A stretch of DNA of 64,000 nucleotides from Actinospica robiniae DSM 44927. Its GTDB lineage: Bacteria; Actinomycetota; Actinomycetes; Streptomycetales; Catenulisporaceae. Made by a program: the position numbers and the translations under genes. Every line of letters begins with the position of its first letter. Within the stretch, counting starts at the first letter, position 1. This document shows, in pieces, positions 27,391-45,248 of the stretch. The notes beneath the pieces are model-generated. The model saw only the letters and a list, made by a program, of their open reading frames with translations. It was not told where the DNA came from and made no database searches. The stretch lies in the NCBI RefSeq assembly GCF_000504285.1, contig NZ_KI632511.1, forward strand, positions 9,220,154 to 9,284,153, read 5' to 3'.

Positions 27391-30318
<2,928 letters not shown>

Positions 30319-31032: not shown

Positions 31033-32532
31033 GTGGGCGAGCGATTGGCCGCGGCGGAGATCGGCTTCGACGGGCGGGACCGGGAACGTTTCCGGAACCG
31101 GCTGACGGCGTGTCAGGACGTGTTCGAGCAGATGCTCGCGCAGGACCTGTTCGAAAAGGGCCGCAAGCTGTGCGGGATCGAACTGGAGTTGCACCTGATC
31201 GACGGTCAGGGACGGCCGGCGATGGTCAACCGGCAGGTGCTGGAACGGATCGCGTCGCCGGATTTCCAGACCGAGATCGGCTCGTTCAACCTGGAGGTGA
31301 ACATCGCGCCGCACAAGCTGGTGGGCACGATGCTCTCCGAGCTCAAGGAGGAGATGGACACCGCCCTGCACTACGCCGACCGGGTGGCGGCGGCGTGCGG
31401 CGCGGGCGTGGCGATGATCGGGGTGCTGCCCACCCTGGGCGAGGCGCACCTGGTCCGGGAGAACTTCTCCCAGGAGGACCGCTACGTCCTGCTCAACGAC
31501 CAGATCGCGCTGGTGCGGGGCGAGGACTTCCGGGTCCGGATCGAGGGTGACGACGAGATCCTCGACACCGCCTTCCCGACCATCATGGCCGAGGCGTGCT
31601 GCACCTCGGTCCAGTTCCACCTGCAGGTCACCCCGGACGGCTTCGCCCGGGCCTGGAACGCCGCGCAGGCGATCGCCGGGGTGCAGGTGGCGCTCGGCGC
31701 CAACTCCCCGTTCCTGCTCGGCAAGCGGCTGTGGCACGAGACCCGGATCGCCCTGTTCGAGCAGGCGACGGATTTCCGCACGGTCGAGCTCGCGGCGCAG
31801 GGCGTGCGCCCGCGGGTGTGGTTCGGCGAGCGCTGGGTGCGCGGCCCGGCCGAGCTGTTCCGGGAGAACGTCATGTACTTCACCTCGCTGCTGCCCAAGG
31901 TGGGGCGCGAGGACTCGGCGGCCGTGCTTGCCGCCGGCGGCATACCGCACCTGCCCGAGCTGCGGCTGCACAACGGCACGGTCTACCGGTGGAACCGCCC
32001 CGTCTACGACGTGGCGCGGGGCAAGCCGCACCTGCGGGTGGAGAACCGGGTGTTGCCGGCCGGCCCCACCGTGATCGACGTGCTGGCCAACGCGGCGCTC
32101 TTCTACGGCCTCGTGCGCGCGCTGTCCGACCAGGACTCCCCGGTCTGGCGGCGGCTCTCGTTCGCCGCGGCCCGGGAGAACCTGCACCGCGGCGCCCGCG
32201 ACGGCATCGGCGCGCTGCAGCTGTGGCCCGGCTTCGGCATGGTCTCGGCCCGCCGGCTCGTGCTCGAGCACCTGCTGCCGCTGGCCGCCGAGGGCCTGGA
32301 CCGCTGGCGGATCGACCCGCGCGAGCGGGACCTGTACCTCGGCGTGATCGAGGGTCGGGCCCGCACCGGGCGCAACGGCGCGGTCTGGCAGCTCGAGCAG
32401 GTGCGCTACCTGCAGGAGGAGCTCGGGCTCGGCCGGCATGAGGCGATCGCCTCGATGCTGCGGCGCTACGCGCACCTGGGCAGGGAGGGCCAGCCGGTGC
32501 ACACCTGGCCGGTGGGGCCGGGCGGCGAGTAG
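31033..32532 (+). CDS. Glutamate-cysteine ligase-like (GCS2 family) carboxylate-amine ligase
   Basis: A 499-aa ATP-dependent ligase of the GCS2 group. It has LFEKGRKLCGIELELHLID (the Glu-rich metal strand) near residues 40-60, FQTEIGSFNLEVNIAPHKLVG, CCTSVQFHLQVTP, VQVALGANSPFLLGKRLWHETRIALFEQATD and LHNGTVYRWNRPVYD with VENRVLPAGPT. Members in actinomycetes are annotated as glutamate-cysteine ligase; because these bacteria use mycothiol and ergothioneine rather than glutathione, the true product may be gamma-glutamyl-cysteine for another purpose or a different amide. GTG at 31033 is a plausible start, although the Shine-Dalgarno (GAGGGGATGACGGC) is unclear. Confidence 0.85.
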   Translation: MGERLAAAEIGFDGRDRERFRNRLTACQDVFEQMLAQDLFEKGRKLCGIELELHLIDGQGRPAMVNRQVLERIASPDFQTEIGSFNLEVNIAPHKLVGTMLSELKEEMDTALHYADRVAAACGAGVAMIGVLPTLGEAHLVRENFSQEDRYVLLNDQIALVRGEDFRVRIEGDDEILDTAFPTIMAEACCTSVQFHLQVTPDGFARAWNAAQAIAGVQVALGANSPFLLGKRLWHETRIALFEQATDFRTVELAAQGVRPRVWFGERWVRGPAELFRENVMYFTSLLPKVGREDSAAVLAAGGIPHLPELRLHNGTVYRWNRPVYDVARGKPHLRVENRVLPAGPTVIDVLANAALFYGLVRALSDQDSPVWRRLSFAAARENLHRGARDGIGALQLWPGFGMVSARRLVLEHLLPLAAEGLDRWRIDPRERDLYLGVIEGRARTGRNGAVWQLEQVRYLQEELGLGRHEAIASMLRRYAHLGREGQPVHTWPVGPGGE

Positions 32533-34433: not shown

Positions 34434-35498
34434 TCACGGCGTCAGCAGCACCTTGACGGCGGTGCGCTCGGCCATCGCCCGGTAGCCGTCGGCGGCGCTC
34501 GCCAGCGGAAGGGTGAGGTCGAAGACCGGGCCCGGGTCGAGGCTGCCGGCGAGCACGTCGGGGAGCAGGTCCGGCAGGTACGCCCGGGCGGGCGCGAGGC
34601 CGCCGGAGAGGGTGAGGTTGCGCTCGAACATCGCCCGCAGCGGCACCGAGGCGCGCAGTTCCACCAGGTCCTGCGGCGCCCCGACGTAGCCGATCGCGCC
34701 GCCCGGGCGGGCGACGGCGATGGCGGTCTCGAGGGCCTGCCGGGAGCCGACGCACTCGAGCGCGCTGTCCACCCCGATCCCGGCGGTCAGATCGCGCACC
34801 TGGGCCGCGGCCTCGGCCGAGTCGCGCACCTCGACCCGGTCGGTGGCGCCGAACTGCTCGGCCAGCCGCCAGCGGTCGTCGTGCGGGGAGAGCGCGATGA
34901 TCCGGGCCGCGCCGAGCCGGTGGGCGGCGAGCACGCCGCACAGCCCGACCGCGCCGTCGCCGACCACGGCGACCGTCGCGCCGGGCCGGACCCGGGCCAT
35001 CACCGCCGCGTGGTGGCCGGTGCCCATCACGTCGGACAGGGCCAGCAGCGCCGGCGCGAGCTCGGGGCCGGTCTCCTGCGGCACCCGCACCAGCGTGCCG
35101 TCGGCCAACGGGGCCCGCACGTACTCGCCCTGGCCGCCGTCGACCAGCCGTCCGAACTTGTCGTCCCCGCCCCAGAACCCGCCGGCGATGCACGAGGTGG
35201 GCCAGCCGTTGCGGCAGTGCGTGCAGGTGCCGTCGGAGTACATGAACGGCGCGATCACCCGGTCGCCCGGGGCGATCTTGGCCACCTCCGAGCCGACCGC
35301 CTCGACGACGCCGAGGAACTCGTGCCCGATCCGCCGGCCCTCGGCCGCCTCGGGCGCCGACTTGTAGGGCCACAGGTCCGAGCCGCAGATGCAGGAGTGG
35401 GTGACGCGCACCAGCGCGTCGGTCGGATCGCGCAGCGTGGGGTCGGGGACGGTGGACACGCGGATGTCTCCGGCGCCGTGCAGCAGCGTCGCGCGCAT
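34434..35498 (-). CDS. Zinc-dependent alcohol dehydrogenase (MDR superfamily)
   Basis: A 354-aa MDR protein. Catalytic zinc ligands are Cys (HSCICGSDLWPYK) and His-Glu (GRRIGHEFLGVVEAVG). The structural-zinc loop is partly present, with GTCTHCRNGWPTSC giving three Cys. The NAD(P)-binding loop is VAVVGDGAVGLCGVLAAHRLGA. The GGAIGYVGAPQDLVELR region resembles threonine or sorbitol dehydrogenase types. Start at 35498 (AAGGAG 8 bases upstream). It is divergent from the aldolase operon with 267 bases between starts, so the two may share regulation and act on a related carbon source. Confidence 0.88.
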   Translation of the reverse strand: MRATLLHGAGDIRVSTVPDPTLRDPTDALVRVTHSCICGSDLWPYKSAPEAAEGRRIGHEFLGVVEAVGSEVAKIAPGDRVIAPFMYSDGTCTHCRNGWPTSCIAGGFWGGDDKFGRLVDGGQGEYVRAPLADGTLVRVPQETGPELAPALLALSDVMGTGHHAAVMARVRPGATVAVVGDGAVGLCGVLAAHRLGAARIIALSPHDDRWRLAEQFGATDRVEVRDSAEAAAQVRDLTAGIGVDSALECVGSRQALETAIAVARPGGAIGYVGAPQDLVELRASVPLRAMFERNLTLSGGLAPARAYLPDLLPDVLAGSLDPGPVFDLTLPLASAADGYRAMAERTAVKVLLTP

Positions 35499-35765
35499 CG
35501 CGGGCTCCTTCCGGCTGGGGCCGGGCCGCACGGCCGGGCCGGGCGTGATCAGCTTCGTCACCTCATCGTAGGCGGGTGCGGGCGGTGCCGCCGGGTGAGC
35601 GGGGGACCGGCCCGACGCCGGGTGGACGGGCGGGCGGCAGCGGGGGCGGCGTGCGAGGCTTGAGGCGGCCGCCGACGTCTTGACGCGCGCTGCGGCGGCG
35701 GGGATGATGAGCCCGAGAACATGAACCGGTGCTCACATTTGTGGGCCGCGCACGAGGAGGAACCC

Positions 35766-36464
35766 GTGCTCCTGTCCGAGGAACGCCACGCGCTGGCCGA
35801 GGCGGGCGCCCGCCTGGCCGAGCGCGGGCTGGTGATCGGCACCAGCGGCAACCTCTCCGTCCGCCGGGACGACCTGGTCGCGGTGACCCCGACCGGCGGC
35901 GTCATCAGCGAACTGACGGCGGAGCAGATGACCGTCATCCGGCTCGAGGACGGCGCCGTCGTGGACGGCGACCTGGCCCCCACCAGCGAAGTGCCGATGC
36001 ACCTCGCGGTCTACCGGGCCACCGGCACCGGCGCCATCACGCACACCCACGCCACCACCTCCACCGCGATCGGCCTCGTAGCCGACGAGATCCCGCTGGT
36101 GCACTACGCGATGCTCTCGCTCGGCGGTTCCGTCCGGGTGGCCGACTACGCCTGCTACGGCACCGACGCGCTGGCCGCGCTGGTGGTCAAGGCGCTGGAG
36201 TTCAAGCAGGCCGCGCTGATGCGCAACCACGGCTCCATCGCCATCGGTTCGAAGCTCGCCAAGGCCGTGGACAACCTCGAACTCGTCGAGTGGTCCGCGC
36301 AGACCTACCACCAGGCGCTGCTTGCCTCCGCCGTCACCGGCCGCGCCCCGCGCGAGCTGAACCAGGCCGAGCAGGAGGAGGTCATCATGGTCGCCCTCTC
36401 CACGAACTACGGCAGCACCAAGAAGATCAGCGACGGCGACTCCGCCGAGACGACCGAGCAGTAA
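35766..36464 (+). CDS. Class II aldolase (fuculose-1-phosphate aldolase type)
   Basis: A 232-aa zinc aldolase. Conserved: GLVIGTSGNLSVRRDD (phosphate-binding loop), VTPTGG, TSEVPMHLAVYRA (catalytic Glu), ITHTHATTSTAIGL (His-x-His metal ligands) and MRNHGSIAIGS with the third His. It cleaves a ketose phosphate to DHAP and an aldehyde. First of three co-directional genes, 19 bases before the PLP enzyme. GTG at 35766 is chosen because GAGGAGGAA lies 4 bases upstream; an ATG at 35721 adds 15 residues that do not look conserved. Substrate unknown; the operon partners suggest an amino or acidic sugar. Confidence 0.87.
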   Translation: MLLSEERHALAEAGARLAERGLVIGTSGNLSVRRDDLVAVTPTGGVISELTAEQMTVIRLEDGAVVDGDLAPTSEVPMHLAVYRATGTGAITHTHATTSTAIGLVADEIPLVHYAMLSLGGSVRVADYACYGTDALAALVVKALEFKQAALMRNHGSIAIGSKLAKAVDNLELVEWSAQTYHQALLASAVTGRAPRELNQAEQEEVIMVALSTNYGSTKKISDGDSAETTEQ

Positions 36465-36483
36465 GGGACGTGAGGACCACCCG

Positions 36484-37926
36484 ATGAGCACGTACGGCAT
36501 CAGCGCCTACCCCGACGTCCCGGCCATCGAGGCCAAGATCGCCGGCCTGACCGGCACTCCGATCAGGACCCTGACGCCTGAGCAGCTGGCCTCCTACCAC
36601 GAGTGGTACGAGAAGAACACGCCCGGCTCGAAGCAGGGCGCGGCCGAGGCCGAGGCCTACATCCCCGGCGGCGTGCAGCACAACCTCGCGCTCAACGACC
36701 CGTGGCCGCTCTCGATCACCCGGGCCGAGGGCGCCTACCTCTACGACGTAGACGACAACCGGTACATCGACTTCCTGCAGGCCGGCGGCCCGACCGTGCT
36801 CGGCTCCAACAACCCGGTCGTGCGCGAGGCAGTGCTCGAACTCCTCGGCCACTGCGGCCCGGTCACCGGCATGCTCCACCCCGCCGAGACCGCGCTGGCC
36901 AAGCTGATCCACGACTTCATGCCCGCCGTGCACAAGTTCCGCATGCTCGGCTCCGGCACCGAGGCCGTCATGGCGGCCATCCGGGCGGCGCGCGCCCACA
37001 CCGGCAAGCAGAACATCATCAAGGTCGGCGGCGCCTACCACGGCTGGAGCGACCAGGTCGTCTTCGGCCTGCGCATCCCCGGCTCCGGCCCGCTGGAAGC
37101 CGCCGGCATCCCCGCGCCCGCCTACTCCGGCACCTCCGAGACCGCCCCCGGCGACCTCGGGGCGCTGCGCGCCCGGCTGACCGCGAACGCCGAGAACGGT
37201 GGCACCGCGGCCGTCCTGCTCGAGCCGGTCGGCCCGGAGTCCGGCACCCACCCGGCCCCGCTGGACTTCAACGCCGCCGTGCGCGAACTGTGCGACGAGT
37301 TCGGCGCCCTGCTCGTCTTCGACGAGGTGGTCACCGGATTCCGCCTCGGCATGGGCGGGGCCCAGGGCTACTACGGGGTCACCCCCGACCTGACCGTCTT
37401 CGGCAAGTGCGTGGCCGGCGGCTACCCGGCCGCGGGCGGCGTCGGCGGCCGCGAGGAGGTCATGGGCGCCTTCACCGGCGGCCTGACCGCGGCCGGCCAG
37501 CGCGCGCTCACCGGCGGAACGCTCTCGGCCAACCCGCTCTCCTGCACGGCCGGCTACCACACCCTGCTCGAGATGGACCGGCTCGACGCGCCCGCCAAGG
37601 CGGGTGCGGCCGGCGACCGGCTGCGCGCGGGCCTGGACGGGCTGATCGCCAAGTACGCACTGCCGTACGTCACCTACAACTTCGGCTCGATCGTCCACCT
37701 GCACACCTCCGGCGTGCTGCACCTGCGCCTGGACGACCCGGAGTTCTTCGACAAGCTCGGCCCGCGGCTGAAGATGCTCGGCCACATGTCGATGGCCTTC
37801 GCCGCCGAGGGCGTGGTCACCCTGGCCGGCTCGCGCATCTACACCTCGATGGCCGACACCGACGAAGTGATCGACGACGCCGTGGCCGCCTTCGACCGCG
37901 TCTTCGCACAGATCCCCGCCGCCTGA
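36484..37926 (+). CDS. Class III aminotransferase, glutamate-1-semialdehyde aminomutase-like
   Basis: A 480-aa fold-type I PLP protein. PLP binds Lys308 in VFGKCVAGGYPAAGGVGG; the pyridine-N Asp is in LLVFDEVVTGFRLGMGGAQGYYG; other marks are LNDPWPLSITRAEGAYLYDVDDNRYIDFLQAGGPTVLGSNNP and RMLGSGTEAVMAAIRAARAHTGKQNIIKVGGAYHGW. The pattern is that of GSA aminomutase relatives, but a heme-type hemL is usually in a tetrapyrrole locus, so here a different alpha-amino or amino-sugar substrate is likely. It overlaps the kinase start by 1 base. ATG start, with GGGACG and GAGG upstream. Confidence 0.85.
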   Translation: MSTYGISAYPDVPAIEAKIAGLTGTPIRTLTPEQLASYHEWYEKNTPGSKQGAAEAEAYIPGGVQHNLALNDPWPLSITRAEGAYLYDVDDNRYIDFLQAGGPTVLGSNNPVVREAVLELLGHCGPVTGMLHPAETALAKLIHDFMPAVHKFRMLGSGTEAVMAAIRAARAHTGKQNIIKVGGAYHGWSDQVVFGLRIPGSGPLEAAGIPAPAYSGTSETAPGDLGALRARLTANAENGGTAAVLLEPVGPESGTHPAPLDFNAAVRELCDEFGALLVFDEVVTGFRLGMGGAQGYYGVTPDLTVFGKCVAGGYPAAGGVGGREEVMGAFTGGLTAAGQRALTGGTLSANPLSCTAGYHTLLEMDRLDAPAKAGAAGDRLRAGLDGLIAKYALPYVTYNFGSIVHLHTSGVLHLRLDDPEFFDKLGPRLKMLGHMSMAFAAEGVVTLAGSRIYTSMADTDEVIDDAVAAFDRVFAQIPAA

Positions 37927-39563
37927 TGCCCCCTCATCCAGAGCAGGTCGACGCCGACTCCGGCCCGCTGGTGCTCGGCGTCGACCTGGGCACCGGCGGG
38001 CTGCGCACCGCCCTGGCCACCGCGCGCGGCGCGATCCTCGCCGTCGCGCGGCGCGACCTGACCACCCGGCTGCTGCCCGGCGGCGGCGCGGAACAGGATC
38101 CGGACGACTGGTGGCGGGCCACCGCCGAGACCGTCAGGGAACTGATCAAGGCGCATCCGGAGGCCGCCGGGCGGATCAAGGCACTGTGCTTCTCCACCCA
38201 GTGGGGCGGCACCGTGCCCGCGGCGGAGGACGGCACCCCGGTCCACCCCGCCCTGATCTGGATGGACGCCCGCGGCGCCCGCTACGCCCAGGCCGCGACC
38301 GGTGCCGCCGTCACCGTCCCCGGCACCGGCTACGGCGCGCGGAAGCTGCGCACCTGGCTGGTCAAGACCGGCGGCGTGCCCACCCGCAGCGGAAAGGACC
38401 CGGTCGGCCAGACCCTCTGGCTGCGCCGCGAGCGCCCCGAGGCGTTCCAGGCCGCCCGCTACCTGCTCGACGTCCCCGAGTACCTCACCCTGCGCGCCAG
38501 CGGCCGGGCCGCCGCGGCCCGCGACACCGCCGTGCTGCGCTGGGCCACCGACACCCGCGACCCGGCCACGCTGGCCTGGGACGGGCAGCTCGCCCGGATG
38601 GGCGGCCTCGATACGGCGAAGCTGCCCGAGCAGGTCCCCGCGGCCACCGTCGTCGGCACCCTCACCGCGCAAGCCGCGGAGGACCTGGGCCTGCCGACGA
38701 GCGTGCAGGTCGTCGCCGGCACCGGCGACACGACCGCGGCCGCCCTCGGCGCCGGCGCCGTCCGGGACTACCAGCCGCACCTGTACGTCGGGACCAGCGC
38801 GTGGCTCTCCTGCCACGTCCCGAGTAAGAAGACCGACGTCCGGCGCAACATCGCCTCGCTCCCGGCCGCCGTCCCGGGACGCTACTGGGTCGCCACGGTC
38901 CAGGACGTCGCCGGCCGCGCCGTCGACTGGCTGATCGAGAACGTGCTCGACGACCCCGACCACCCCCGCTCGCCGGAAGCGCTCGACCGCCTCACCCGGC
39001 TCGCCGCCACGGCGCCCGCCGGCGCGAACGGCGTCGTGTTCGCCCCCTGGCTCAACGGCGAGCGCACCCCCGTCGACGACCCGTCGCTGCGCGGCGCCTG
39101 GTTCAACCTGTCCCTCTCGACCAGCCGGGCGGACCTGGCCCGAGCCGTGTTCGAAGGCATCGCGCTCAACACGAAGTGGATGCTCGACGCCGTCGAGCAC
39201 TTCACCGGCCACACCGGTCCGGGCGGCCTCGGCCCGATCCGGTTCATCGGCGGCGGCGCGTCCTCGACTCTGTGGTGCCAGGCGATGGCCGACATCCTCG
39301 ACCGCCCCATCGACCAGGTCGCCGAGCCGCAGCTGGCCAACGTCCGCGGTGCCGCCCTGCTCGCCGGCGTCGCCCTCGGCGAGGTGACGTGGGATCAGAT
39401 CCCCGGCCTCGTCGAGATCGCCGCGCGCTACGAGCCGAACCCGGCCCACCGCGAGCGTTACGACGAGGCCTACGCCGCCCTGCTCGCCCACCACAAGGCG
39501 CACCGGAAGCTGTACGCACGGCTGAACCCGCCGTTCGAGTCCCCGGCCACCCGGGCCGACTGA
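37926..39563 (+). CDS. FGGY-family carbohydrate kinase (xylulokinase-like)
   Basis: A 545-aa sugar kinase of the FGGY type: VLGVDLGTGGLRTALATARGAILA (ATP phosphate 1), STQWGGTVPAAEDGTPVHPALIWMDARG, LWLRRERPEAFQAARYLLDVPEYLTLRASGR, VVAGTGDTTAAALGAGA (phosphate 2) and RFIGGGASSTLWCQAMADILDRPI (adenosine). It is about 40-60 residues longer than the shortest xylulokinases. It would phosphorylate a ketose or polyol and feed the aldolase. Coupled to the PLP gene through overlapping TGATG. The stop converges with the next gene after 6 bases. Confidence 0.88.
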   Translation: MPPHPEQVDADSGPLVLGVDLGTGGLRTALATARGAILAVARRDLTTRLLPGGGAEQDPDDWWRATAETVRELIKAHPEAAGRIKALCFSTQWGGTVPAAEDGTPVHPALIWMDARGARYAQAATGAAVTVPGTGYGARKLRTWLVKTGGVPTRSGKDPVGQTLWLRRERPEAFQAARYLLDVPEYLTLRASGRAAAARDTAVLRWATDTRDPATLAWDGQLARMGGLDTAKLPEQVPAATVVGTLTAQAAEDLGLPTSVQVVAGTGDTTAAALGAGAVRDYQPHLYVGTSAWLSCHVPSKKTDVRRNIASLPAAVPGRYWVATVQDVAGRAVDWLIENVLDDPDHPRSPEALDRLTRLAATAPAGANGVVFAPWLNGERTPVDDPSLRGAWFNLSLSTSRADLARAVFEGIALNTKWMLDAVEHFTGHTGPGGLGPIRFIGGGASSTLWCQAMADILDRPIDQVAEPQLANVRGAALLAGVALGEVTWDQIPGLVEIAARYEPNPAHRERYDEAYAALLAHHKAHRKLYARLNPPFESPATRAD

Positions 39564-39569
39564 GAACGA

Positions 39570-40064
39570 TCAGGTGACGACCAGGTCCAGGCTGCCGCCG
39601 TTGAACTCGACTCGGCACTGCAGGCTGCCGGTGCCGCTGCACCTGAGGTCCTGCGGATCGGTCGCGTCGATGTGCACGGTCCCCGGGGCCCCGGCGGACT
39701 GGTAGTCGGCGGTCGACGGATCAGTGGTCTGCACGAACGCGAGCGACCCGGCGAGTAGGAAGCGCGGGTATTCGGCGCCTTGCTGGCTTGTCCGCTCCAA
39801 CGCGAAGGGCGACCTGTTCGAGAGCCGGAACTGCACGAAAGGCGCACCCGCGCCGGGCAGGCCGTCGACGATGCCGTCGTCGTCCGCGTTGTAGACGTTT
39901 CCATCGATGTGCTGGTACGTCTGGTTGATGATGATGCCGTTGTTGAAGCCCGGGCCGGCGTCGTGCCCCGCCGCGGAGGCGTCGGCGAAGGCAGTGCCGG
40001 GGATGCTCACGAGCGCGGCTGCGGCGAGGAGGGCGAAGGCGGCGCTGCGAGGTGTGCGGATCAC
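39570..40064 (-). CDS. Secreted hypothetical protein
   Basis: A 164-aa protein with a clear Sec signal peptide: basic MIRTPRSAA, hydrophobic FALLAAAALVSIPGT, cleavage probably after AFA near residue 27. The mature part is small, polar and beta-rich: GFNNGIIINQTYQHIDGNVYNADDDGIVDG, FVQFRLSNRSPFALERTSQ and CSGTGSLQCRVEFNGGSLDLVVT, with two Cys near the end that may form a disulphide. No domain is recognised. ATG at 40064 with GGAAGGAAA upstream. Its promoter lies in the 185-base divergent gap with the next gene. Confidence 0.8.
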   Translation of the reverse strand: MIRTPRSAAFALLAAAALVSIPGTAFADASAAGHDAGPGFNNGIIINQTYQHIDGNVYNADDDGIVDGLPGAGAPFVQFRLSNRSPFALERTSQQGAEYPRFLLAGSLAFVQTTDPSTADYQSAGAPGTVHIDATDPQDLRCSGTGSLQCRVEFNGGSLDLVVT

Positions 40065-40249
40065 GGGTTTTCCTTCCGTCGGAAGTAAGGCATGAGCCCG
40101 CTCGGAGACTGGGAGCCGGCGTCCGGCCGCCTGCGGAGCCTCACCCCCGTGAGTGGTGTCATTGCGCCGAACGCACCAGCAACCGGGCCGTCGATGCCGG
40201 CCCGGTTCAACTCAGGGCTTTAACCGCGTGCTCGCAGTAGAGTGTTGCG

Positions 40250-40933
40250 ATGGAGATACCGGGCTATTGGCTGCGCGGACCTGAGCTGCGCCGGGACGAC
40301 GCGACGGTTTCGGCGGTCGATCGGTTCTTGGACCAGGCGCTCGAACAGGGCCCGGACCGTCCGATCGACTACACGCTCGACCTGCCGAAGTGGCAGTTCC
40401 TCTGCCACGCGATCGAGCGGGCGAACGTGGTCTTGCACGGCTCGGGGGATCCCGGCATCGACCTGTTCGAGCCCCGTCAGGCGGCCGACTCTCTGGAATT
40501 CAGCAATCGCTGCGCCGTCTACGCCGCGGCCGACGGCATCTGGCCGGTGTATTTCGCGATCCTGGACCGCGCGCGTCATCCGATGCTGCTGTGCAACGCC
40601 GCCGTCCGGCTGGGTTCGGGGGACGAGGAGCTCAGCGGCCCGTACTACTTCTTCTCCATCACGGACACGGCCCTGCAACGCCGGCCGTGGCGGACCGGGA
40701 CGGTGTATCTGCTGTCTGCGGACGGGTTCGAGCACCAGCCGCCGTTCGCCGTCGGCGACGCCTACGCGCACGTCGCCCAAGCGGCCTGTCCCGTGCCCGT
40801 CAAACCGCTGGCCAAGCTCGCGGTCGGCCCGGAGGATTTCCCGTTCCTGGCCGAGATCCGCGGTCATCGAGACGAGCAGCTGCAGGCGCGCATCGCCGCG
40901 GACCCCGGCGGCTTTCCGTGGGTGGAGGAGTGA
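40250..40933 (+). CDS. Conserved hypothetical protein
   Basis: A 227-aa cytoplasmic protein. The conserved-looking segment is LPKWQFLCHAIERANVVLHGSGDPGIDLFEPRQAADSLEFSNRCAVYAAADGIWPVYFAILDRARHPMLL, followed by SGPYYFFSITDTALQRRPWRTGTVYLLSADGFEHQPPF. I know this pattern from unnamed bacterial proteins of similar length; it may be a small-molecule or nucleotide-binding fold, but no catalytic motif is evident. Start ATG; GAGTGTTGCG upstream is a poor ribosome site. It is a single gene, followed by a convergent DUF6204 gene. Confidence 0.65.
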   Translation: MEIPGYWLRGPELRRDDATVSAVDRFLDQALEQGPDRPIDYTLDLPKWQFLCHAIERANVVLHGSGDPGIDLFEPRQAADSLEFSNRCAVYAAADGIWPVYFAILDRARHPMLLCNAAVRLGSGDEELSGPYYFFSITDTALQRRPWRTGTVYLLSADGFEHQPPFAVGDAYAHVAQAACPVPVKPLAKLAVGPEDFPFLAEIRGHRDEQLQARIAADPGGFPWVEE

Positions 40934-41443: not shown

Positions 41444-42175
41444 TCAGCGCGCGGCGAGGTTGGCGAGGTAGAGCCGCAGCAGGGTTTTGAGCTCGGCCAG
41501 CACCGCCTCGTCGCCGCCGGGCGCGCGGCCGAAGGCGAACTGGAGCAGGACGTCTGCGACCCGGACCGCCACCTGCGCGTCGAGGTCGAGTTCGGGGCCG
41601 TCGGCGAGTATCCCGCGCGCCACCAGGATGCGCCGGACGCCGGCGGCGATGGCGAGGTTGTTCGCCTCGTCGGCGCGGGCGAGTTCGGGGGACAGGTGCC
41701 GGCCGGACCACAGTGCGACGTAGCCGGGGCGGGAGCGGTAGAGGTCGGCGAACTCGTCCACCAGCCTGCCGACCGGGTCGGCCCAGCCGCCGCCCTTGGT
41801 GCTGCCGCCGTCGCCGCTCTCCACGACCGCGTCGACGCCGTGCTCGGCGGCGTACGCCTCGGCGTCGGCCACCAGCGCTTCGATCGCGACGTCGAACTCG
41901 CCGATGTACCCGCGCGCGAGCGCGTCGACCACGGCCGCCTTGTCCGGGAAGAACTGGTAGATCGAGCCGACCGGGACGGCCGCCTCCTGCGCGATCCGGC
42001 GGACCGTGAGCGCCTCGAAGCCCTCGGTCGAGAGGATCTCGTCCGCCGCCGCGAGGATCTGCGCCACCCGCGCCCGCGAACGGGCCTGGCGCGGTTCGCG
42101 CCGCACCCGCGGTTCGGCACCCCCGCTGCCGGCGCCCGGCGCCTTGACCGTCCGCGTTCCCGTGGCCGTCACCAC
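41444..42175 (-). CDS. TetR-family transcriptional regulator
   Basis: A 243-aa regulator. The N-terminal HTH is [50 protein letters not shown] (about residues 37-86). The C-terminal helical ligand domain includes [33 protein letters not shown] and [34 protein letters not shown]. It is divergent from the peptide deformylase with the start codons about 90 bases apart. The GTG GTG pair at 42175/42172 is the likely start (GGAAGGCG upstream); the frame is open to 42250 but that would overlap the promoter area. Confidence 0.87.
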
Positions 42176-42264
42176 CCCACCGCCTTCCGGCCCGTTTTCC
42201 CAATACACCGCACCGTGAACGATACTGGGTAGCGGCACCCACGGAAGCACAAGGCACTACACCC

Positions 42265-43070: not shown

Positions 43071-44168
43071 TCACATCGCGACGAAGTGGTAGCCCTTCTC
43101 CAGCAGCGCCGGTATGAAGATCTTCAGCGCGGCCACGGTGTTGGTGCGGACGCCGCCGCCGTCGTGCTCGAGGATGATCGAGTGGGCCCGGGTGTGGCTC
43201 ATGACGTTCTGCACGATCTGCTGCGTGTCCACGTGCTCGGTGTCCCAGTCGCGCGGGTCTACCGACCAGCCCACCGGGCGCAGGCTGCGGGCGGCGCAGG
43301 CCTGGAAGACGGCTTTGGACCAGTTGCCGTAGGGCGCGCGGAAGATCGTCGGGTGCTGATTCGCGTTCGCGAGCGCGTCGTTGCAGCGGTCGATCTCCGA
43401 GCACACCCGGGAGAACGTGTAGTGCGACAGATCGGCGTGGTCCCAGGTGTGGTTGGTCACCGTGTGGCCGGCCGCGGAGACCTCGCGCACCAAGGAGAGA
43501 TTCGCGCCGACCTGACGGCCGATCATGTTGAAGGTCGCCTTCACGCCGTGCTTCGCGAGCACCTCGAGCACCTGCGGCGTGTACGTCGGGTGCGGGCCGT
43601 CGTCCATGGTCAGGGCTATGCCCATGGGGCCGGCGTCGTCGACGTACCACTGCGGCGCGGTCGGCACCTTCACCCCGGGCGGCAGCCCGGGCGAGTGCGA
43701 GGGCGAGCCGGTGGACGACGGCGGCTGCGAGGCGGACGTGCTGCCCGCCTGCGAGGGCGAGCCGGCGTTGCCGGTCGGGGCGCCGGACGGGTGCGCGGGA
43801 CGGCTCTGCCCGGGCACGGCGGCCGTCGAACGGCCGGACCCGGGCGCGCTGGACCCGCCCGTGCCGGCGGCCGACGGCTTCAGCCAGTTGGGGCCGGGCC
43901 CGTCCACGGCGTACGCGCTGGCGACCCCGCCCGCTCCGAGCAGCGTGATCCCGCCCGCCGCGAACAGCACCCGGCGGCGGGTCGCCCGGCTTCGGCCCGG
44001 CTCCGCGCCCGGCCCGGCCGGGCCCGGGACGTACAGCGCGGTCTGGGCCAGCGGGTCCTCCGCCTCGAAGGGCTCGGAGGTCTCGGCTTGGCGCGGGACG
44101 CGCGGGGTCACCGCCTGGGTCTCGGCCTCGGGGTCGGCGTCCGGACGCCAGTCTCGTTCGTCTCTCAC
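43071..44168 (-). CDS. Membrane-anchored polysaccharide deacetylase (CE4)
   Basis: A 365-aa protein: cytoplasmic Asp/Glu-rich N-terminus (1-60), basic RATRRR, TM helix about 67-87, a Ser/Pro/Gly-rich linker (90-165) and an extracellular NodB domain. Motifs: TMDDGPHP (1), NHTWDHADL (2, His pair), RAPYGNWS (3), WSVDPRDWD (4) and IILEHDGGG (5, His). It would deacetylate N-acetylglucosamine in peptidoglycan or a wall polymer. All five catalytic motifs look intact. The stop is GC-hairpin-flanked at 42955-43050. The start at 44168 has GGTGTGAGAG upstream. Confidence 0.9.
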   Translation of the reverse strand: MRDERDWRPDADPEAETQAVTPRVPRQAETSEPFEAEDPLAQTALYVPGPAGPGAEPGRSRATRRRVLFAAGGITLLGAGGVASAYAVDGPGPNWLKPSAAGTGGSSAPGSGRSTAAVPGQSRPAHPSGAPTGNAGSPSQAGSTSASQPPSSTGSPSHSPGLPPGVKVPTAPQWYVDDAGPMGIALTMDDGPHPTYTPQVLEVLAKHGVKATFNMIGRQVGANLSLVREVSAAGHTVTNHTWDHADLSHYTFSRVCSEIDRCNDALANANQHPTIFRAPYGNWSKAVFQACAARSLRPVGWSVDPRDWDTEHVDTQQIVQNVMSHTRAHSIILEHDGGGVRTNTVAALKIFIPALLEKGYHFVAM

Positions 44169-44270: not shown

Positions 44271-45176
44271 TCAGTCCAGTGATGCCCGCACGACGGCCGC
44301 GGCGGCGAGGTCGAGCGAGGCGTGGCCGGTCGACTTGTACGCGGTGATCTCCCGCTCGTCGCGCCGGCCCGGGTGCGAGCCGTCGAGGACCGCGCCGATC
44401 AGCGTGACCCGCTCGGGATCGACTCCCTGCAGCTCGTAGGCGCCGGCGGGCGGGGCGCTGGTGGCCACGCCCGGCCACTCGGCGAACAGCGACGCCGCCG
44501 CGATGGTCTCCGCATCCAGTTCAGGGCCCTGCGACCCGCCGACGGAGCCGACGTGCGTGCCGGGGGCGAGCCACGCCGCGCGCACGACCGGCTGCTGCGC
44601 GCCGGTGCAGCACAGCACCGCCTCGGCCGCCCGCGCGCCCGCCTCGATCGACGGCGCCACGGCCACTCCGTACTGCTCGGCCAGCGCCGCGGCCCGGTCC
44701 TGGTCGCGTCCGGCCACGGCCACCTCCCAGCGCTCGTCCCCGGCCAGCAACTCCAGCTGTGCCCGCGCCTGCGCGCCGTTGCCGACCACCAGCACGCGGC
44801 GGGCGTCCGGGCGGGCCAGCGCGCGCAGCGCCACCGTGGCCGACGCGGCGGTGCGCGCGGCGGTGAGCGGCTCGGCGTCGAGGATGGCGAGGGGCCGGCC
44901 GTCATGCTCGTCGAAGATCGCCACCAGGCCCTGGTGGCTGCTGCGCCCCGGGCGGGACGGGTCGTCGAACACGGCGATGAGCTTCGCGCCGAGTCCCACG
45001 CCCGGCACGTACCCGGGCATCGCGCCGAGCAGTCCGTGCTCGGCGAACGCGGCGATCCGCGCAGGCACCGAGGACCGGCCGGCGGCCACCGCTATCAGGG
45101 CCTTGGCCACCATCGCGGTCAGGGCCTCGCCGTCGGCGAGCGCCGCGCGCATCTCCTCGTGGCCCAGCACCGTCAT
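44271..45176 (-). CDS. Ornithine cyclodeaminase / mu-crystallin family protein
   Basis: A 301-aa NAD-binding protein: LGAMPGYVPGVGLGAKLIAVFDDPSRPGRSSHQGLVAIFDEHDGRPLAILDAEPLTAARTAASATVALRALAR, the Rossmann loop VLVVGNGAQARAQLELLAG, and GTHVGSVGGSQGPELDAETIAAAS. Family members cyclise ornithine to proline or reduce ketimines and pyrroline carboxylates. The Lys of AKLIAVF and the Asp in ELDAETI match the family. ATG at 45176 is preferred (GGAG 7-8 bases upstream); a GTG at 45239 lies near the stop of iclR, only 9 bases after it. It is the second gene of a minus-strand iclR unit. Confidence 0.85.
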   Translation of the reverse strand: MTVLGHEEMRAALADGEALTAMVAKALIAVAAGRSSVPARIAAFAEHGLLGAMPGYVPGVGLGAKLIAVFDDPSRPGRSSHQGLVAIFDEHDGRPLAILDAEPLTAARTAASATVALRALARPDARRVLVVGNGAQARAQLELLAGDERWEVAVAGRDQDRAAALAEQYGVAVAPSIEAGARAAEAVLCCTGAQQPVVRAAWLAPGTHVGSVGGSQGPELDAETIAAASLFAEWPGVATSAPPAGAYELQGVDPERVTLIGAVLDGSHPGRRDEREITAYKSTGHASLDLAAAAVVRASLD

Positions 45177-45248
45177 CCGCTCCACACTTGCCTCCAGGTT
45201 GATCTTCGGTTCATCCGGCGGGTCGGGCCCGCCGCTCACTTCCGGCGC

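Follow-up and report, generated by a model that had tools for sequence, protein, structure and literature searches.

A three-gene module of aldolase, class III PLP enzyme and FGGY kinase in Actinospica robiniae: a probable sphingoid-base catabolic operon without need of sphingosine-1-phosphate lyase

Which substrate is handled by an operon in which a class II aldolase, a class III pyridoxal phosphate (PLP) enzyme and an FGGY carbohydrate kinase are tightly linked? The question is raised by a locus of Actinospica robiniae DSM 44927, lying in the stretch of 64,000 nucleotides analysed here, which we call the window (G000:C1:9220154-9284153, within a genome of 9.92 Mb). The three genes stand on the forward strand, with a 19-base gap between the first two and a one-base stop/start overlap (TGATG) between the second and the third: an aldolase resembling FucA (35766 to 36464; Pfam Aldolase_II, 5e-45), an enzyme of 480 amino acids resembling glutamate-1-semialdehyde aminomutase (GSAM) (36484 to 37926; Aminotran_3, 1.2e-50) and a kinase of 545 amino acids (37926 to 39563; FGGY_N, 3.5e-30, and FGGY_C, 1e-32). 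These coordinates and domains agree with the tight operon described in an earlier note on this DNA, whose author knew no named pathway with this exact set; our literature search, in which subscription papers and preprints were not covered so that prior work may exist, likewise turned up no paper describing it. We propose that the module is probably a sphingoid-base catabolic operon that needs no sphingosine-1-phosphate (S1P) lyase.

On sequence grounds the three products are assigned to the class III aminotransferase fold, the FucA-type aldolases and the FGGY kinases. Concerning the PLP enzyme, its closest models and structures are those of GSAM, and Lys308 in PDLTVFGKCVAGG (codon 37405 to 37407), which the earlier note had correctly named as the PLP lysine, aligns with the lysine of the GSAM chains. 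However, its score against the hemL equivalog (TIGR00713) is 269.7 bits, below the cut-off of 527.3. In HMMER alignments the GSAM chains show PGGVN.PVRAF where the PLP enzyme family has PGGVQHNL, and Q65, H66, N67 and L68 are invariant in 83/83 family members; the arginine of PGGVNSPVRAF is presumably the residue holding the substrate carboxylate in GSAM. The best class III paralogue in the same genome (L002, G000:C1:6379380; 41%) has PGGVNSPVRAF and is HemL-like. In line with the earlier note, which counted a functional HemL among the refuting results, score, motif and the HemL-like gene elsewhere show that the enzyme is not HemL. In a FastTree phylogeny the host's eight other class III enzymes fall outside a single clade (support 0.974) that unites all 83 family members, and 171 of the 480 positions are at least 95% conserved among the 83 sequences. 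R451, kept in 82/83, lies one position past the site of GSAM Glu406 (the residue numbering that we assume in placing it) and would suit a transaminase binding an oxo-acid acceptor.

The other two enzymes also stay below the equivalog cut-offs, those of FucA and of the sugar kinases. The kinase reaches 253.1 bits against the curated XylB model (cut-off 380.25), and a xylulokinase identity was dropped on account of this score. The aldolase reaches 133.6 bits against the curated L-fuculose-phosphate aldolase model (cut-off 264), and its best NCBIfam model, the haloarchaeal ribulose-1-phosphate aldolase NF053831, gives 170.5 bits with a cut-off of 300. Its residues Glu75, His93, His95 and His155 are the equivalents of E73, H92, H94 and H155 of E. 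coli FucA, which we take to be the catalytic glutamate and the zinc histidines of that enzyme. The reading frame starts with GTG at 35766, preceded closely by GAGGAGGA, and stops at 36464; an alternative in-frame ATG is found at 35721.

Relatives of the module come from a scan of genome contigs that gave at least 576 matches, of which the best 80, plus two plasmids, make up a non-random sample of 82 loci (83 with the window) for the neighbourhood tables, the 4.4-kb loci L010-L012 being left out. Genes in these loci and in the window were called with a codon-usage script that missed some aldolases (61/83 found), so BLAST counts are used for the module. Comparing the window proteins with the reading frames of the 82 loci, we found the kinase in 72, the aldolase in 72 and the two together in 66; their distance from the PLP gene never exceeds 7 kb, except for one kinase at 7.3 kb. 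Several loci lacking one of the two matches are cut by a contig end. The HxH motif of the zinc site is present in 70 of the 72 loci holding an aldolase. Two other actinomycetes, L015 and L016, have these three genes grouped in the same way (aldolase 69-70%, PLP enzyme 76-79%, kinase 62-67%), and so do plasmids of Burkholderia ambifaria and Butyrivibrio fibrisolvens, where the PLP enzyme (59% and about 55-56%) is adjoined by an FGGY kinase and a class II aldolase that the records, as for the PLP enzyme itself, annotate only as carbohydrate kinase, aldolase and aminotransferase. The aldolase is far more diverged between the window and these two plasmids (34% and 27%) than the PLP enzyme. Since the set recurs in L015, L016 and records of many other phyla, the arrangement is not a matter of chance. 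Moreover, aldolase and PLP enzyme are fused in one reading frame, with both domains well matched, in three loci (L017:9212-11440, L031:9179-11449 and L084:9110-11338), which points strongly to one pathway for both. A relative of the PLP enzyme (55%) was also seen on a contig of a Sigynarchaeota (Asgard) metagenome-assembled genome (L046:7139-8590), which could be a binning error; neither kinase nor aldolase was found near it.

The recurrent neighbours up to 7 kb away from the PLP gene (n = 83) are TetR regulators (50), major facilitator superfamily (MFS) carriers (47), a second, degenerate aldolase (38), aldehyde dehydrogenases (ALDH; 21), DUF2147 (18), porin-like Gcw_chp proteins (14), AraC regulators (13), short-chain dehydrogenases/reductases (10) and RuBisCO-like proteins (4). 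Family names rest on one scanned representative per cluster, and no LacI, ROK or DeoR regulator and no phosphotransferase system (PTS) was found among the recurrent clusters scanned, about seven small ones remaining unscanned. The degenerate class II aldolase (38 proteins) lies mostly just after the PLP gene, as in L050:11443-12054. These 38 paralogues have no HxH motif and keep Glu75 in 6 and His155 in 4 cases, whereas among the Zn-type aldolases, a class picked by HxH in which retention of H93 and H95 is true by construction, Glu75 and His155 are kept in 62/63. The degenerate proteins may be structural, pseudo-enzyme partners.

A different neighbour is found in four clostridial loci, L074 (11470-12786), L075, L081 and L092, where a RuBisCO-like protein stands beside the PLP enzyme, with the kinase in three of them and with no aldolase found near the PLP enzyme in any. 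Among these only the L074 protein was scanned, and MtnW is its nearest model (341 bits, cut-off 409; 221 bits for OiaX). MtnW, the 2,3-diketo-5-methylthiopentyl-1-phosphate enolase, acts on an alkyl 2-keto-1-phosphate, and the similarity is therefore in line with a phosphorylation at C1. A conversion of a beta-amino acid to a beta-oxo acid followed by decarboxylation (OtnC/RuBisCO-like), brought up by the RuBisCO-like neighbour, was considered and dropped, because the PLP enzyme lacks the carboxylate arginine and the L074 protein is nearer to MtnW than to OiaX. A phospho-lyase activity of the ethanolamine-phosphate type was likewise weighed as a candidate for the PLP enzyme.

The nature of the substrate is suggested by five sphingolipid markers, namely neutral ceramidase, SphC, SphD, S1P lyase and PlcH-type phospholipase C, at least one of which occurs in 10 of the 82 loci. 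Neutral ceramidase (PF04734, 4e-110) had been set as a test before it was seen, and it is a recurrent neighbour, lying inside five loci (two Pseudomonas, one Myxococcales, two Spirochaetes); in the Myxococcales locus kinase, TetR and ceramidase genes follow each other on the same strand, and the ceramidase of L050 matches that of P. aeruginosa (2zws) at 6e-175. Homologues of SphC and SphD are present in 5/82 loci, and in L035, L042 and L050 they are joined by an SphB-like cytochrome c in the order B-C-D. By Pfam this recurrent trio reads cytochrome c / ALO / Ala_racemase_N, which fits sphBCD of P. aeruginosa as described in the available part of PMC5150637. Between the module and sphBCD these three loci carry an AraC gene, labelled SphR-like from its position and domains. 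In L125, where the module is not in the stretch read, the genes follow in the order SphB-SphC-SphD, AraC, DUF1302 and ceramidase. L128, L129, L130 and L131 have the module between the DUF1302/TetR genes and that AraC gene, with SphBCD beyond the latter in L129 and L131 and no SphBCD there in L128 and L130; six other Pseudomonas module stretches (L132-L137) have neither SphBCD nor ceramidase, and five of them show TetR4/DUF2147/TorF/MFS surroundings. An S1P lyase follows the module directly in L065 (3mad, 1.6e-186), and a PlcH-type phospholipase C (859 bits, cut-off 580) is encoded 1.9 kb upstream in L025, with two genes between. Relatives of the module are recurrently linked to sphingolipid enzymes or regulators, and the neighbours as a whole (TetR/AraC, MFS, porin-like proteins and ALDH, together with ceramidase, SphBCD, S1P lyase and PlcH in some lineages) point to sphingoid bases.

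The association was also evaluated at the level of genomes, with Fisher p-values that are optimistic because the genomes tested are related: among 199 genomes of Pseudomonas (the genus of G031), 13 have the module, 4 a strong ceramidase (E below 1e-60) and 3 both (p = 8.5e-4), so that the module occurs in 3/4 genomes with ceramidase versus 10/195 without. In the three genomes with both, about 7 kb lie between the ceramidase and the PLP gene. The same 199 genomes include 45 with sphC (one broken copy), a gene that accompanies the module in 6 of 13 cases (p = 0.046). In the order of G053 (30 genomes) ceramidase was found in 10, the module in 5 and both in 4 (p = 0.031); ceramidase lies 3 to 4 kb from the PLP gene in G049, G053 and G270, and on a separate contig in G268. 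A further survey covered 50 of the 80 loci's genomes, hand-chosen for named isolates and phylum spread. Here the ceramidase fell within the module locus in five of the eight module genomes with a strong ceramidase, against about 0.03 expected by chance (8 x 20 kb / 5 Mb).

For the chemistry we infer the substrate, the order of the reactions and the products as follows. The route would start from a long-chain 2-amino-1,3-diol, R-CHOH-CHNH2-CH2OH (sphinganine, sphingosine or phytosphingosine), whose amino group would be passed by the class III PLP enzyme to an oxo-acid acceptor, leaving a 1,3-dihydroxy-2-ketone. The missing GSA-type substrate arginine also counts in favour of this proposal. Since the ketone would look like a ketose at its head end, it could be processed by an FGGY kinase and a dihydroxyacetone phosphate (DHAP) aldolase, and a ceramidase would be expected as neighbour. 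The kinase would phosphorylate the C1 hydroxyl, and the FucA-type aldolase would split the 1-phospho-2-keto-3-hydroxy intermediate next to the ketone, at a bond presumed from FucA, into DHAP (the head carbons) and a fatty aldehyde (the tail), which a cellular aldehyde dehydrogenase would then oxidise. The earlier note had put forward transamination or an amino shift, phosphorylation and aldol cleavage, a logic that appears right in general. Its amino-polyol substrate comes close in chemistry, because sphingoid bases are long-chain amino-diols; the water-soluble amino-sugar that it also offered is unsupported, the neighbours pointing to sphingoid bases instead. The copy in the window would function as in its relatives, because the PLP enzyme is tightly conserved (76-79% for L016/L015, about 55-59% for the plasmid loci L014/L013). 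As to a broader claim, we see even chances that this is a widespread, undescribed S1P-lyase-independent route from sphingolipid backbones to DHAP and fatty aldehydes in many phyla, in which Proteobacteria, Spirochaetes and Bacteroidota would use a helper subunit that arose from a dead aldolase, and clostridia a RuBisCO-like protein in place of the aldolase.

Besides the relatedness of the genomes, several observations weigh against a sphingoid substrate or the proposed steps. None of the five markers is present in 72/82 loci, nor in the window, and in the survey of 50 module genomes a strong ceramidase is found in 8 and missing in 42, with 12 passing the family cut-off. The AraC proteins beside other modules (34-43%) come no nearer to the SphR-like AraC than do AraC proteins 8 kb off in four Pseudomonas loci (39-41%). 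In L047 and L054 the genes next to the module encode glycoside hydrolases; L088 has an MFS_2 carrier labelled 'sugar transport' there. Position 74 of the aldolase, presumably the phosphate-site serine in FucA, is Ser in the window and V or I in 52 of the 63 Zn-type members; phosphate binding may therefore differ in relatives. Concerning the host family, four genomes carry the module (A. robiniae itself, G001, G002 and G003): the first two have no ceramidase match and the others weak matches only. The link is even reversed in this family, since genus g3 has a strong ceramidase in 9/10 genomes and the module in none; phospholipase-type PF04185 proteins, found in all 14 family genomes, are uninformative. 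In favour of the proposal, A. robiniae encodes, about 37 kb downstream of the operon and beside an MFS_2 carrier, an S1P-lyase-like protein (L139:6891-8588, G000:C1:9296890-9298587; 35%, 2.9e-63), whose ten best PDB matches are all S1P lyases, from 4e-77 (3mad) to 7e-50. A similar match exists in G003 and in the module-less G008, and the module genomes G001 and G002 give only 1e-21 and 1e-23.

Part of these observations would fit a broader module for 2-amino-1,3-diols or long-chain amines, acting on sphingoid bases in some lineages and on another amino-alcohol elsewhere, the window included. With markers in so few loci, host-family module genomes lacking a strong ceramidase, and aldolases that diverge more than the PLP enzymes between the window and the two plasmids, this is a possibility to be kept in mind; we nevertheless consider it doubtful, as the uniformity of the PLP enzyme across the 83 sequences favours one substrate class. 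The sphingoid substrate could also be processed in another order, a version that overlaps with our proposal: the kinase might act first, giving the base 1-phosphate, followed by deamination at C2 and the aldolase cut, or the aldolase might act first, the ketone yielding dihydroxyacetone and then DHAP. The S1P lyase beside the module makes a base 1-phosphate plausible in L065, and the changed phosphate-site residue in the aldolases of most relatives would suit an unphosphorylated substrate. It is established, however, that FGGY kinases prefer polyols and ketoses and FucA-type aldolases DHAP adducts, and the similarity of the L074 protein to MtnW fits a 2-keto-1-phosphate, which makes a different order unlikely.

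If the module degraded a water-soluble amino-polyol or amino-sugar and its sphingolipid neighbours were coincidental, this would account for a kinase and an aldolase of sugar families, for a ribulose-1-phosphate aldolase as top NCBIfam model, for the glycoside hydrolases and MFS_2 carrier just mentioned and for an oligopeptide-type ATP-binding cassette ATPase in L019. Against it stand the recurrent TetR/AraC, MFS, porin-like and ALDH neighbours and the sphingolipid enzymes in several lineages, and LacI, ROK, DeoR and PTS families do not appear among the recurrent clusters scanned; we regard this reading as rather improbable. Hardly credible is a second HemL or porphyrin-related aminomutase with the kinase and aldolase as unrelated neighbours: GSAM does provide the closest models and structures, but the hemL score, the substrate-arginine motif missing in 83/83 members and the separate HemL-like gene led us to drop this explanation, and the aldolase fusion in three loci also argues against it.

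A TetR regulator encoded in the window at 41444 to 42250 on the reverse strand (TetR_N, 1.9e-13) is a candidate repressor of the operon and is the one conserved extra gene at this locus: its homologue stands directly after the kinase in L015 and L016 and just past it in L138. The L015 protein is the top match (54-55%) among the module-linked TetR proteins compared, followed (28-32%) by the proteins whose genes diverge from the module in the Pseudomonas loci L035, L042 and L050. Upstream of the operon, sigma-70-like hexamers TTGACG-17-GATGAT (35680 to 35708, forward strand) form a putative promoter by consensus match, the only such match in 35450-40300 versus 0.1 expected in shuffles. The divergent zinc dehydrogenase reported in the earlier note exists (34434 to 35498, reverse strand; ADH_zinc_N, 2e-22), but a part for it as a pathway step is unsupported, since the gene is not conserved: it adjoins the module only in A. 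robiniae and G003, two of the four module-carrying genomes of the host family, and we judged it to be outside the conserved module. In the same comparison, the interval between the aldolase match and the next conserved gene in G002 is only about 290 bases long, and no zinc dehydrogenase match was found at the L016 (Actinocrinis) locus. Two proteins with no Pfam match are encoded between the kinase and the TetR gene (39570-40064, reverse strand, and 40250-40933, forward strand); tblastn of both against L138, L015, L016 and L011 gave no match, and they are therefore probably a recent insertion. Farther away in the window, Pfam identifies a glycine decarboxylase (27454-30318), a GCS2-type ligase (31033-32532), a polysaccharide deacetylase (43071-44168) and an ornithine cyclodeaminase-like protein (44271-45239).

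Sphingoid bases, lipids with antimicrobial action, abound in hosts, plants, fungi and some bacteria, and the means by which bacteria get rid of them are still largely an open matter. If our proposal is true, it would explain the module loci in bacteria of soil, sludge, rumen and gut, would extend a role in lipid breakdown to GSA-like PLP enzymes and FGGY kinases, perhaps also to RuBisCO-like proteins, and would give a function to proteins annotated only at family level, as in the two plasmid records. A soluble route of three enzymes is also directly testable with purified proteins. In the available part of PMC6148460, S1P lyase is presented as the way out of sphingolipid metabolism for every organism studied, and according to that of PMC11893366 (2025) P. 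aeruginosa converts sphingosine to an unknown product, and what SphB and SphC do directly is open. The FGGY kinase appearing in the portion of PMC8151288 that was available belongs to a glycerolipid operon and is putatively a glycerol kinase.

Among known systems, SphR/SphBCD of P. aeruginosa is sphingosine-responsive (PMC3900636, PMC5150637, PMC11893366, each as far as its available text goes) and is related to the module through the SphC/SphD homologues in its loci; unlike the module enzymes, SphB and SphC are a periplasmic cytochrome and oxidase, and SphD is a PLP protein of alanine-racemase fold, unrelated to the class III enzyme. The S1P lyase route, with sphingosine kinase followed by the lyase, likewise relies on a kinase together with a PLP enzyme and ends in a long-chain aldehyde and a small phosphorylated fragment, whereas in the module kinase and PLP enzyme belong to other families, a metal aldolase would cut the C-C bond and the product would be DHAP rather than phosphoethanolamine. 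HemL shares with our PLP enzyme the fold, the PLP lysine and the closest sequence family, and differs in the substrate-arginine motif and in the hemL cut-off that the module enzyme does not reach. The aminopentol aminotransferase FumI (6hbs), which presumably deaminates C2 of a sphingoid-like amino-polyol, is also a class III PLP enzyme, but a distant one, with a profile E of 4e-32, far behind GSAM. MtnW, as an enzyme of an alkyl 2-keto-1-phosphate, has a relative in the four clostridial loci (one of them scanned) in which no aldolase was found, and none in the window operon. The haloarchaeal ribulose-1-phosphate aldolase cleaves a ketose-1-phosphate, as the window aldolase would, although the latter stays below the cut-off of its model. 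Finally, in the L-fucose and L-rhamnose pathways an FGGY kinase produces a ketose-1-phosphate that a class II aldolase splits into DHAP and an aldehyde, in the same manner as we propose here; those pathways begin with an isomerase and the module would begin with a transaminase; its aldolase and kinase also stay below the equivalog cut-offs of FucA and the sugar kinases.

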